64,000 nt of DNA from Pseudomonadales bacterium (GTDB taxonomy: Bacteria > Pseudomonadota > Gammaproteobacteria > Pseudomonadales > DC-out160), in the NCBI GenBank assembly GCA_019090455.1, contig JAHRWA010000038.1, positions 1-64,000 on the forward strand. The letters are read 5' to 3'. The notes beneath the pieces were generated by a model. It ran no database searches. It saw nothing but the letters and a program-made list of their open reading frames with translations, and was not told where the DNA came from. Of this stretch, positions 14,038 to 20,364 are shown one piece after another. A program made the position numbers and the translations under genes. The stretch's first letter is position 1; every line of letters begins with the position of its first letter.

Positions 14038-14376
14038 TTACTTAGTGAAACATTTTTTTCTAACTCTAGCTTCTCTTTCTTCGTAGGATGGGAAATGGAT
14101 AACACATGCTGAGCCTTGGTCTGTTTGCTCTAACAAATACAACCACTTTTCGGCCAGCTCATAATTAGAAAACTCATCATCAACCATCGCTTCAATTTCA
14201 CAATTCAAATACATACAACCGACAAAGGTGTAGTTCCCCATTGCAGTTTCATACCAGAGGTCTATTTGATCCATTTTACACCCGTGTAGAGGGCAACAAC
14301 CTATCGCAAGCCTATTTCGACGAGCCGTTCTAGTTTGAATTCTCATGGCATTAGCTATCGCCCGGTCATTTAACAT
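14038..14376 (-). CDS. Hypothetical 112-residue cysteine-rich protein
   Basis: Not recognised. The first third is basic (IQTRTARRNRLAIG) and leads into CCPLHGCKMD and, further on, VGCMYLNCEIEA, so five or six cysteines could bind a metal. The second half is acidic (DDEFSNYELAEKWLYLLEQTDQG) and looks helical, ending in a basic tail REARVRKKCFTK. ATG 14376 has GCGAG four bases upstream. No signal peptide, so probably cytoplasmic. It is an orphan between a phosphatase and the 568-base gap. The residue composition looks like a real protein, but coding status rests on that alone. Confidence 0.5.
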   Translation of the reverse strand: MLNDRAIANAMRIQTRTARRNRLAIGCCPLHGCKMDQIDLWYETAMGNYTFVGCMYLNCEIEAMVDDEFSNYELAEKWLYLLEQTDQGSACVIHFPSYEEREARVRKKCFTK

Positions 14377-14472: not shown

Positions 14473-14504
14473 TGTAATATGGCTTATAAGTAAGGCATAT
14501 TACA
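14473..14504. repeat. Inverted repeat / stem-loop
   Basis: TGTAATATGGCTTA (14473-14486) and TAAGGCATATTACA (14491-14504) pair at 13 of 14 positions around a TAAG loop. No T run follows, so an operator or RNA structure is as likely as a terminator. Confidence 0.6.
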
Positions 14505-14846: not shown

Positions 14847-14870
14847 TCATTTCTCAAAAATGAGAAATGA
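14847..14870. repeat. Perfect stem-loop 75 bases before the Cys-module gene
   Basis: TCATTTCTCA (14847-14856) and TGAGAAATGA (14861-14870) are exact complements around an AAAA loop. Position suggests a regulatory hairpin or operator for the gene starting at 14945. Confidence 0.6.
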
Positions 14871-14944: not shown

Positions 14945-16363
14945 ATGCTGTTAAAGCGATTACTAGCTGTGCTCTGTATAGGATGCACCACCATTACAAG
15001 CATGGCTTTTGCTGATGAAAAATCATTTGACCAAGCGGTAGACATATACATGAAAGGCTTCAAAGAGTGTGTGGATGCCCACGCTGTACGAGGTGACAAC
15101 ATTAGTACTGCAAAGCGTAAATACACGACTTATCTTCGATACAAGGAGCAAGCAGCGGCTATTGACCAGTCTATATTAACTTCCACCCAGCGCTCACTAC
15201 AGAAAAACCAACGTTACTGTGAAAAAGCCTACGAGAACATTCTCATTGCTGAAGCTGAGCCCATCATTAAAAAAGGAATCACTGCTTGCGAGCAGGCCAA
15301 AACCGCTTATGAAACCGGTAAATTGGAAGAAGCGAAAATAAAGATAGACCTTTTTGATCAGCAGAATACAGAAGCGCTAAGCATTACGGATAAGATTTTA
15401 GATATCTATGCGATCGCAAGCAAAGTACGCTCTTGCAACAGAATAAAGAAAAAAATTTCCACTGCTGAAAAAGGCTTTCAAATTCAAGAAGAGGAGTCGC
15501 AACTTGCGATTATCCAGCTAATCGATGCCAACGATCAATGCAGCAGCGCACAAACTCTAGCGAACAAACCAAATGTCAAACTGAGCGACATTGATGCCAT
15601 TCAAAAAGCGCTAAATAAGAGCCGCGCGCAAACCAAAGCGACAAAGAATTACACCGCAGCTATCACTGCCATGAAGAATTATCCGGATCGAGACTCCAGC
15701 AAACAAATGGTTTTATTGTTTGACAAGGCGGCTTCTTGCGCGCAAAGCGTGAGTGCTCGTTTAACGAAGACAAGAAGCAAAAAAACGAGCGCCGAAAAAT
15801 CCATCAATGATGCGGCCGCCATTGCAAAACAAGCCTACGACAAATGCCAAGCGGGTGAGAGCCTAGTAAAAGGGAAGCTTTCTCAGTACAAGAACTTGGA
15901 TGAAGCATTGAAATATCACAATGACGCTAAGAAATTACGGCTGGCTTCTCAGAAAAAGCCGGGCGCATCGCTCGCCACTCAATATTCTCAATGGGAATCC
16001 AGCAAAAAATATCAGCGGCTAATTAACAAGTCCAAAGCCTGCGAGAAGAAAGTGATTGCCCTACACAAATCACGAAAAACAGAATATGGACAACGTAAAA
16101 ACAAACAGCTCCAAGAGGAAGCCGCAGCTCGTCGCAAACAACTAGAAGACAAGCGTAAGAAAGATGAGGAAAACACCAAGCGCCTAGAAGAAGAAAGAGT
16201 GGCAAATCTAAAAGCGGAGGCCGAGGCTGTAGCGGATGCAGAAGCGCAGAAAATTAGCAGCCAGAAAAAGCCGAAGTCACGCTCGAAAAAATCATGGTCG
16301 GACTTAATCAGTGATGATGATGATGACATTGGCAGCCCTTTCGAAGAAGATGAGGATGAGTAA
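14945..16363 (+). CDS. Exported coiled-coil protein with paired-cysteine helical modules
   Basis: Not recognised as a known family. 472 residues from ATG 14945, which has GGAAGGA about 7 bases upstream (an in-frame TTG at 14930 overlaps that site). A signal peptide ends at SMAFA-DE (about residue 23). The mature protein is almost entirely helical and Lys/Ala/Gln-rich. Eight cysteines lie at about 42, 92, 115, 164, 199, 265, 301 and 366, spaced as four pairs 50, 49, 66 and 65 apart; first members sit in KECVDAH, TACEQAK, DQCSSAQ, DKCQAGE and second members in RYCEKAY, RSCNRIK, ASCAQSV, KACEKKV. This implies four modules each closed by a disulfide. Then comes a charged coiled coil (370-440) and an acidic tail DDDDDIGSPFEEDEDE. 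Stand-alone gene; a hairpin terminator follows. Confidence 0.85.
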   Translation: MLLKRLLAVLCIGCTTITSMAFADEKSFDQAVDIYMKGFKECVDAHAVRGDNISTAKRKYTTYLRYKEQAAAIDQSILTSTQRSLQKNQRYCEKAYENILIAEAEPIIKKGITACEQAKTAYETGKLEEAKIKIDLFDQQNTEALSITDKILDIYAIASKVRSCNRIKKKISTAEKGFQIQEEESQLAIIQLIDANDQCSSAQTLANKPNVKLSDIDAIQKALNKSRAQTKATKNYTAAITAMKNYPDRDSSKQMVLLFDKAASCAQSVSARLTKTRSKKTSAEKSINDAAAIAKQAYDKCQAGESLVKGKLSQYKNLDEALKYHNDAKKLRLASQKKPGASLATQYSQWESSKKYQRLINKSKACEKKVIALHKSRKTEYGQRKNKQLQEEAAARRKQLEDKRKKDEENTKRLEEERVANLKAEAEAVADAEAQKISSQKKPKSRSKKSWSDLISDDDDDIGSPFEEDEDE

Positions 16364-16390: not shown

Positions 16391-16421
16391 CTAGTCAAAA
16401 TACAGTGGGTATTTTGACTAG
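16391..16421. terminator. Bidirectional hairpin between convergent genes
   Basis: CTAGTCAAAATAC (16391-16403) and GTATTTTGACTAG (16409-16421) are exact complements with a 5-base loop, placed between two convergent genes. The run of T/A is inside the stem rather than after it, so strength is uncertain. Confidence 0.65.
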
Positions 16422-18555: not shown

Positions 18556-20364
18556 GTGTTCAGCAAATTGCGACTCAAACTGACAATCCAGATGCCCTCT
18601 CACATTCTTACTGTATTGATAAGCTGCCTGCTCACATCCACTCACTACACTGCCGCAGCCTATGGCTCATCATTGATAAATCATTCTGCGGGTAGCGACA
18701 TATCTGCAGGTAGAGACAAAGATGAAAGCACGATACTTCATGACGGCCCACTCATAGAAAATCCATACGTCAACTCATACGAAAAGGCATTTACCTTCAA
18801 GCCAAGTGCTAATATTTACCGTACTCAAAACTCACCGGATAACGCGAATATAAGGCTGCTATTTCTTTATGTAGAGACTGTGGCTCACCAACACTCAATC
18901 GAAGAAATCGATCTCGCCATAGGTGAGCTTATTCAACAAACCAACCATGCCTATCAAGAAACGGGAATTGCTGCCAACGTGGAAGCAGCCCATGTGGGTG
19001 CATGGCCCTTCGGTAACAATGAGCAAATTGCGACAATGAACGCTATCGACGTTTTCTCTGAATTACGTCGATGGGTTAACAGCGAACTTTGGGGCGAAGG
19101 TGGACTCATGCAATTATACGGTGCGGATGCCGTGTTTCTTGTGGACGTCAGAGATGACGCTGACAATTATTGTGGATGGGCAAACATCGACACCAAAGAA
19201 GGATTGCTAAACAAAGACAGCAGCAATTCCTTCGGTCTAATTCGACTAGGCCGAGGCTGTGGCACAACGGCTGCGATTCTTGCTCATGAGCTTGGACATT
19301 TACTAGGATCCGCTCACGGTAACGAAGACACGCTCACAGCCTCATCATCTCTTGGCCATGGTGTCGTCTGCGATGACCAGTCAACGATTATGCACAGGGG
19401 TTTCCCAAAACACTTGTTGTTTTCAAATCCTCTGCTGTTACGAGGCGGTCAGACCTGTGGCGACACGGTGCATGCAAACAACGCTAAACTCTTCGGTGAA
19501 AATACCGCACTGCTGGCAAACAAACAGACTTATCAAACTCCTTCATCCGATGTCAGCCTTATTTTAACTGACTCCTATCGCTCGCCGACACAACCGGCAA
19601 AAGTCACTTTTTATCGCAGTGGAATCGTTAATCAAAGCGCACAGGTCGAATGGCACTATAAAGATAAGAACATACAAAATACGAACACCCTAGTAGGCGG
19701 TGTCATTACCTTTGAGCCTGGTGAAATCAATAAGACTGTGGAGATTCCAGCTCCGCAATTAATCGATTCCAGCACCCCACAATTTTCAATTTATTTACGT
19801 AATCCTTTGAACGTTTTTGCCGACAATAATGAACTACTCATTACCCTAAATGAGACACCGACAAACGCGATAAACGTTAACTTTTTAATAGAGACCGAAG
19901 GTCTATCTCTCACGCTTTACAATATGAGTAGCCACACCACGGATATCGAAATCGCTGAAATACAATGGACAATAAGCAACTCCAACAACCATTATTTTCA
20001 TCAGGGAACTGAGTCGGTCATTTCTATTGAAGTGCTCAATGCAGGAATCTATAACATTCAATTATCTGTATTCGACACCGAAGGAGAAGCGTTTTTAAAA
20101 TCAATGGATATACTCATTGAGGACACATCCTCCGGAACAATTTCACGTAATCCCACCGCCGGTGACAATAGTACATTTGAAAATAGCCTGCTGGAGAATC
20201 AAGGTGGGGGCGGCGCCAGCTTACACATCATTTTCGTGCTTGCCTTAATGAAGATATTTGAGATGTCACTATCTTACCGACACCTGTTCTATAAAAACCG
20301 AATTTACCAAAACCGTTCAGGCCACTACATGCATTTTAGAAACACGAAAAAATTACGCCATTAA
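18556..20364 (+). CDS. Secreted metzincin zinc protease with Gly-rich C-terminal anchor
   Basis: Predicted exported metalloprotease of 602 residues. HELGHLLGSAH at 244-254 is the extended HExxHxxGxxH zinc site, and IMH near 278 is the Met-turn, together defining a metzincin (reprolysin-like). Cysteines around the site (CGWAN, GRGCG, GVVCDDQ, GQTCGD) probably form disulfides. From about 330 a beta-rich region resembles Calx-beta (VTFYRSG ... FEPGEINKTVEI), then a PKD-like stretch. Near 550 GGGGASLHIIFVLALMKIF looks like a GlyGly-CTERM sorting signal, though about 35 residues follow it, more than usual. GTG 18556 or ATG 18592 may be the start; both lead into a signal sequence. Its end overlaps the convergent SprA-type gene by 12 bases. 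Confidence 0.85.
   Translation: MFSKLRLKLTIQMPSHILTVLISCLLTSTHYTAAAYGSSLINHSAGSDISAGRDKDESTILHDGPLIENPYVNSYEKAFTFKPSANIYRTQNSPDNANIRLLFLYVETVAHQHSIEEIDLAIGELIQQTNHAYQETGIAANVEAAHVGAWPFGNNEQIATMNAIDVFSELRRWVNSELWGEGGLMQLYGADAVFLVDVRDDADNYCGWANIDTKEGLLNKDSSNSFGLIRLGRGCGTTAAILAHELGHLLGSAHGNEDTLTASSSLGHGVVCDDQSTIMHRGFPKHLLFSNPLLLRGGQTCGDTVHANNAKLFGENTALLANKQTYQTPSSDVSLILTDSYRSPTQPAKVTFYRSGIVNQSAQVEWHYKDKNIQNTNTLVGGVITFEPGEINKTVEIPAPQLIDSSTPQFSIYLRNPLNVFADNNELLITLNETPTNAINVNFLIETEGLSLTLYNMSSHTTDIEIAEIQWTISNSNNHYFHQGTESVISIEVLNAGIYNIQLSVFDTEGEAFLKSMDILIEDTSSGTISRNPTAGDNSTFENSLLENQGGGGASLHIIFVLALMKIFEMSLSYRHLFYKNRIYQNRSGHYMHFRNTKKLRH

Follow-up and report, generated by a model that had tools for sequence, protein, structure and literature searches.

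A cysteine-paired, exported-looking helical protein of duplicated modules in a Pseudomonadales contig, and its relatives

The gene, its flanks and its leader

The window, by which we mean the whole stretch of 64,000 nucleotides analysed here (contig JAHRWA010000038.1 of a Pseudomonadales bacterium), holds a forward-strand gene whose product joins a leader to four cysteine-bearing modules, a charged stretch and a tail (Table 1). The same gene stands at the same place in a sibling locus, L008, and the two copies differ at 92, 82 and 237 sites at codon positions 1, 2 and 3 respectively (1415 sites), with dN of about 0.20 and a dS of 2.63 that is saturated. Since these differences lie mostly at third codon positions, the gene looks to be under purifying selection, to judge from the two sequences. 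A one-base gap at about 4704 of L008 breaks the frame there into 244 and 257 residues, through either an assembly error or a real break; the copy in genome G001 (L002) has the same two ORFs and may be the same assembly.

Table 1. Features of the gene and its flanks, in window positions.
Feature	Positions	Strand	Basis
Block of 34 bp identical in window and L008	14689..14722		alignment; intergenic region otherwise diverged
Ribosome-binding-like stretch, GGAAGGAA	14932-14939	+	by eye
Gene, 472-aa exported cysteine-paired helical protein	14945..16363	+	open reading frame; codon conservation against L008
Signal peptide, residues 1-23, cleavage between AFA and D	14945..15013	+	inspection; alignment A2
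Module 1, residues 27-99, C42 and C92	15023..15241	+	profile comparison, alignment, structure model
Module 2, residues 100-172, C115 and C164	15242..15460	+	profile comparison, alignment, structure model
Module 3, residues 180-273, C199 and C265, longer kind	15482..15763	+	profile comparison, alignment
Module 4, residues 282-372, C301 and C366, longer kind	15788..16060	+	profile comparison, alignment, whole-core model
Charged segment rich in K, E, R and A, residues 373-440, probably helical or a coiled coil	16061..16264	+	composition
Conserved tail motif K-S-W-S-D-L-I, residues 449-455	16289..16309	+	A2 alignment, pattern scans
Acidic tail, SDDDDDIGSPFEEDEDE, residues 456-472	16310..16360	+	translation, A2 alignment, composition
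Perfect inverted repeat of 13 bp between convergent genes	16391..16421		inverted-repeat search

A preliminary description had the gene standing alone behind a hairpin-bearing upstream region of its own. It does stand alone, with 568 bp upstream and 77 bp downstream free of any listed gene. Inverted repeats are indeed present upstream but are not kept in the sibling: an imperfect one at 14473-14504 is not conserved in the alignment with L008, and a second, a small palindrome noticed by eye (14847-14870) that the tool did not list, falls in an alignment gap. The 34-bp identical block is a possible regulatory element, perhaps a promoter or operator serving either this gene or the divergent one. 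A promoter scan, for which 4.2 sites were expected, returned a single one, and that lies within the gene. The perfect repeat downstream is a possible terminator; it has no long T run and was not listed by the terminator scan. The divergent gene (14038-14376, reverse strand) is a cysteine-containing ORF of 112 residues, 119 in L008, for which Pfam gave nothing above the cut-off. Further along the forward strand, at 18556-20364, lies a metalloprotease-like ORF with the sequence HELGHLLGSAH and, by eye, a C-terminal Gly-rich stretch and hydrophobic segment, which we take to resemble a GlyGly-CTERM sorting signal.

The proposed export of the protein is borne out by the appearance of its leader, which ends in an AxA-type cleavage site whose Ala23 is near-invariant among 13 window-type proteins (alignment A2). 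The leader carries cysteines at residues 11 and 14, and by eye no lipobox cysteine is conserved among the 13 leaders: several have a cysteine, those of L010, L012 and L016 have none, and only C14 of the window protein is preceded by G, a weakly lipobox-like context that is not common to the others. No membrane anchor was seen by eye in the window protein.

Paired cysteines and two kinds of module

The mature chain has cysteines at residues 42, 92, 115, 164, 199, 265, 301 and 366, which form successive pairs exactly 50, 49, 66 and 65 residues apart, as first noted, with gaps of 23, 35 and 36 residues between pairs. The shared local contexts that had been proposed, of the form (K/D)xC(E/Q/S)xA for first members (KECVDA, TACEQA, DQCSSA, DKCQAG) and (R/K/A)xCxxx(V/I/Y) for second members (RYCEKAY, RSCNRIK, ASCAQSV, KACEKKV), fit roughly three of the four members of each set. 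When eight cysteines were placed at random 200,000 times, the first spacing matched the second and the third the fourth, within one residue, in 124 draws, and 364 draws fitted any two-and-two scheme.

Conservation of the cysteines is stronger evidence than these spacing statistics. Six of the 51 non-identical matches were dropped before counting, namely L025, both fragments of the sibling copy L002, whose frame is broken, and three rows (L005, L020, L021) that are partial or over-trimmed at the start; this left 45 proteins (alignment A1). The first six cysteines are invariant in all 45, and the seventh and eighth occur together in 29 and are missing together from the other 16, so that cysteines are kept or missing in pairs, in agreement with the initial proposal; two proteins have one extra mature cysteine each. 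Where the last pair is missing, as in L007, module 4 is mostly either short or exchanged for a different sequence, frequently a charged one. As the module itself is mostly gone from the six-cysteine proteins, the loss of both cysteines at once argues only moderately for their pairing. In the tree L007 stands basal to group II (see below), and since the neighbouring groups have eight cysteines, loss of the pair is the simplest account. Two very distant relatives have spacings of 51, 49 and 67 (L059) and of 48, 50, 60 and 76 (L079), each with 23 residues from the second cysteine to the third. At least three cysteine pairs, with spacings near 50, 49 and 66 and that same distance of 23, were thus found to characterise the family.

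From this pattern we infer four disulfides, 42-92, 115-164, 199-265 and 301-366. Redox-active or sensory cysteines, as opposed to structural ones, would also be strictly conserved; but here they are widely spaced, the mature window protein contains no CxxC, and the cysteines come and go jointly and sit in predicted helices of a repeat, all of which makes such a role extremely improbable.

Profile-profile comparison, with 20 column-shuffled controls for each pair, relates module 1 to module 2 (E 2e-15, score 73.3 against a control maximum of 14.4) and module 3 to module 4 (E 8e-8, 38.9 against 9.3), with cysteine falling over cysteine in the alignments. The resemblance persists when the cysteines are masked (E 4e-12, 58.2 against 13.9, and E 3.5e-5, 27.0 against 6.2). 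Across kinds the best pair is 2 and 3 (E 9e-4, 20.7 against 15.3), which after masking shows a slight excess only (15.8 against 10.2); masked modules 1 and 3 score 14.5, under the control maximum of 17.7. Because this cross-kind resemblance is weak, we describe the arrangement as A-A-B-B, in which any kinship between A and B would be very old. Internal duplication, which had been proposed for four like modules, therefore stands as two tandem duplications, 1 with 2 and 3 with 4, and not as four equal units.

An AlphaFold2 model of modules 1 and 2 (residues 26-175, with the window and L008 sequences as the only input) is confident in two of its five versions (pLDDT 91.7, 89.0, 76.2, 68.3 and 64.3; pTM 0.78 for the best). 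It places helices at residues 27-48 (with C42), 53-73, 83-123 (with C92 and C115), 127-147, 149-153 and 155-173 (with C164), so that a single helix of 41 residues holds C92 of module 1 and C115 of module 2. These two cannot pair within the chain because they lie 23 residues apart on one long helix, and the layout makes 42-92 and 115-164 the plausible pairs. The two halves of the long helix would each pack against the other two helices of the module to which they belong, and the model suggests that modules 1 and 2 are three-helix units sharing that helix. The module had first been pictured as a helical hairpin closed by a disulfide; in the predicted layout the disulfide would instead clamp the first helix of a three-helix unit to the third. 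A model of the whole core is poor (pLDDT 57), though confident around module 4.

Fold searches with the models place the protein among common helical arrangements only: Foldseek gave zero matches at E<=0.001, and VIA returned TPR, 14-3-3 and spectrin chains together with designed ones, at Z no higher than 9.4, in a range flagged as common for helical models. HcpB and HcpC of Helicobacter pylori are built of Sel1-like helical repeats of 36-38 residues, with a motif of their own, that are cross-linked by disulfides (PMC3851747). The window protein would resemble them in its helical repeats with putative disulfide tethers; the cysteines kept or missing in pairs and the predicted helix layout would suit disulfides that fix the packing of the repeats. 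It differs in its cysteine-to-cysteine periods of 73 (modules 1-2) and 102 (modules 3-4) and in having modules of two kinds. Sel1 was not matched in the window protein by Pfam at E up to 1, and is absent among the matches listed for the 45 members (25 of 33 families).

TPR proteins, including periplasmic ones of the CpoB type, likewise consist of helical repeats, and TPR chains are among the weak fold matches; the TPR period of 34 residues is not found here, and the shared 41-residue helix is a further predicted difference. Pfam did not assign TPR to the window protein, and TPR_5 matched one of the 45 members at E 0.063. Spectrin repeats, which are about 106 residues long, offer a likeness in the predicted three-helix units and in the continuity of helix 83-123 across neighbouring modules; they differ in lacking cysteine clamps, and the first two modules here are shorter, at 73 residues. 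Pfam found no spectrin match in the window protein, and the spectrin-repeat chains in the fold search, obtained partly with the poor core model, have Z values typical of common helical arrangements. TonB and TolA, finally, share a helical periplasmic part, and one distant relative (L059, genome G474) ends in TonB_C; unlike them, the window protein has a cleavable-looking leader. TonB begins with a membrane helix bearing an SHLS motif (PMC12204202), and the leader of the window protein, MLLKRLLAVLCIGCTTITSMAFA followed by D, is by eye without SxHxLxS. Neither the TonB_C/TolA C-terminal domain nor an OmpA-like domain was found in it by Pfam.

Relatives, tails and neighbouring genes

Members of the family are patchily distributed. 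A search with the single protein matched 22 of 390 genomes of the order, one of which, G183, was dropped; its protein, L025, has one cysteine only and is a TPR protein, presumably PilF-like. A search with a family profile (A3) matched 23 of the 390, one of them doubtful: the match in G204 (37 positions, E 1.7e-4) is not counted as a member. Two of 369 genomes in a class sample and three of 349 in a phylum sample matched, the window's own genome being included in both, and in the latter G961 is doubtful (E 5.1e-4, in a 615-aa frame) and likewise not counted. The window's genome has a single copy, and copy number rises to four in G172 and G233, two genomes of one family within the order; in family f28 the profile finds two in G028 and G193 and three or four in the other genomes. 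In each of G309 and G327, two of the rows seem to be the two parts of a single fragmented gene; the fourth match in G097 is weak (E 3.2e-5).

A midpoint-rooted tree of 34 core sequences separates the window-type proteins (about 470-520 aa), group II (13 rows, about 590-690 aa, 99/99 support) and a set of 12 six-cysteine rows made up of group III and family f17 (97/92). Within the first of these the window protein sits on a long branch with weak support (84/73); L004 is an unplaced long branch.

That the protein belongs to no recognised family, as first stated, holds for Pfam, NCBIfam and PDB sequences, in which no family fits either the window protein or the profile. Pfam on the window protein at E up to 1 gave only MACPF_D3 at 0.18, and the best match of the profile to PDB sequences was a syntaxin at E 0.13. 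Matches of the members to FIMAH (3 of 45, best 1.3e-4), MmeI_TRD (4 of 45, 0.002) and SMC_prok_B (4 of 45, 4.7e-4) look like helical or low-complexity noise, as does that of the acidic part of the window protein to FYDLN_acid (E 0.33). A literature search, judged by titles and abstract openings, found no description of the family. As far as searched, it is an undescribed family of a known general kind.

The C-terminal parts differ among groups. The preliminary description gave the window protein a coiled coil followed by an Asp/Glu tail; the charged stretch and the acidic tail are both present, and the helix or coiled coil is probable from composition. In window-type proteins the tail carries acidic residues and a short motif, W-[T/S/L/V]-D-[L/V/I]. 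Written more loosely as W-x-D/E/K-(L/V/I), the motif occurs in all 13 A2 proteins, that of L019, SWVDII, having escaped the scripted pattern and been recognised by eye; it makes up the last six or seven residues in 12 of them and follows the acidic run in 11 of 12, and the window protein alone has it before the acidic tail. In L024, of f17, it occurs twice, flanking an acidic run. By eye, a tail of the form [VI][VS]Q[VIL]-x-x-x closes all 11 group III proteins, with W as the last residue in five. Group II has a conserved C-terminal stretch, aligned in 15 of its 16 A1 proteins (A8, cut at 185 residues, L032 left out), for which no family match was found in Pfam or, by profile, in PDB sequences (best E 0.74); a likeness to cupredoxins is faint, Cupredoxin_1 matching one of the 15 at E 0.036. 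L059 ends in TonB_C at E 1.5e-18, a fusion found in that one genome only.

We also scanned 17 genomes for the tail motif at DNA level. A looser terminal pattern gave 44 matches, seven at family genes by position, against 47 for the reversed control; a stricter one gave five, of which three are family members, one is out of frame within a methionine-synthase-like gene and one is in a short ORF that runs opposite another gene. Within these exact patterns there is no sign that the motif is a general export or degradation tag.

The acidic tail had been suggested to bind cations or a partner. A run of at least 7 acidic residues in 12, within the last 90, occurs in 12 of the 13 A2 proteins, which would suit cation binding as the main function; yet L003 keeps the W motif with at most 3 acidic residues in 12, proteins of groups II and III reach at most 5 of 12, and no known metal-binding motif was recognised, so that we consider this reading highly improbable. 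As the acidic tail is common to most orthologues and stands beside a conserved Trp motif, docking to a partner is likelier than plain cation binding, so far as the sequences can tell.

An acyl-CoA dehydrogenase gene lies downstream of and convergent with the gene in all five window-type loci examined (the window, L008, L088, L091 and L099), adjoining it in each except L099, and also adjoins the unplaced relative L102. In group II it is adjacent in two of the five loci examined and one gene off in a third; L101 and L092 are without it, the latter having an enoyl-CoA-hydratase-like gene instead, and it is likewise missing from the loci inspected in f17 and group III. The enzyme was identified by Pfam in the window and by sequence likeness elsewhere. 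This recurrence hints at a periplasmic protein of lipid or fatty-acid function, an idea we find improbable, since the enzyme gene is convergent and not co-transcribed, several loci lack it, no lipid-binding family is matched, and the neighbourhood looks like inherited synteny with duplication of the pair, which would account for it. Around the window-type genes the neighbours are metabolic, which offers no hint of an envelope role.

Other relatives keep different company. In all three group III loci examined (L090, L097, L104) the gene precedes same-strand AAA ATPase and VWA genes, with gaps of about 70-140 bp; these were identified by Pfam in L097 (VWA CoxE-like) and by sequence likeness in the other two, and we take the ATPase to be of the MoxR type. 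In G474, a genome of the same class but another order, a TonB_C gene, the family gene with its cysteine-paired repeats and TonB_C, and a TPR gene follow on one strand with gaps of about 20 bp, an apparent operon at 5546-8761 of L093. Together with the helical repeats and the charged helix, the group III neighbours, the TonB_C fusion and its TonB_C and TPR neighbours would suit an envelope-integrity rod of the TolA/CpoB kind, one that links the outer membrane with peptidoglycan and with the machinery of division or transport. Against this stand the window protein, in which neither a membrane anchor nor an OmpA-like or TonB_C domain is seen, and an occurrence in 23 of 390 genomes of the order (one doubtful), unlike that of core envelope machinery, and we regard such a role as rather unlikely.

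Candidate function

Our preferred reading, to which we give about an even chance, is that the protein is an oxidised periplasmic rod or adaptor whose C-terminus chooses the partner. After Sec export and removal of the signal peptide, a soluble periplasmic chain would fold into four tandem helical modules, two short and two long, and the periplasmic oxidation system would make one disulfide per module at the pairs given above. The modules would assemble as a stiff helical rod or solenoid, from which the charged helical stretch and a flexible tail would display a C-terminal docking element, W-S/T-D-L-V/I with acidic residues. Family members would then have the repeat domain in common, and the element that varies between subfamilies would select the partner. 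Duplication, the paired conservation of the cysteines, the varying C-terminal elements, purifying selection and, by inspection, an export-type leader are shown by the sequences; rod shape, disulfide formation and binding are what we infer for the window protein.

More tentatively, and with some doubt, the family may comprise undescribed rods of periplasm length in which disulfide-clamped, spectrin-like three-helix modules serve as a chassis for exchangeable C-terminal docking heads, so that a lineage would have several paralogous envelope adaptors. The heads would, just as tentatively, be the Trp/acidic peptide, the conserved domain, the other short terminal peptides and TonB_C.

Three or four cysteine pairs, with 23 residues between the first and second, make a fingerprint that Pfam and NCBIfam leave unnamed. 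Were the protein just helical filler, its interest would be small. If the rod reading is true, the family would be a disulfide-stabilised bacterial counterpart of the tandem three-helix rod, with exchangeable docking tails whose partners could be fished for directly.
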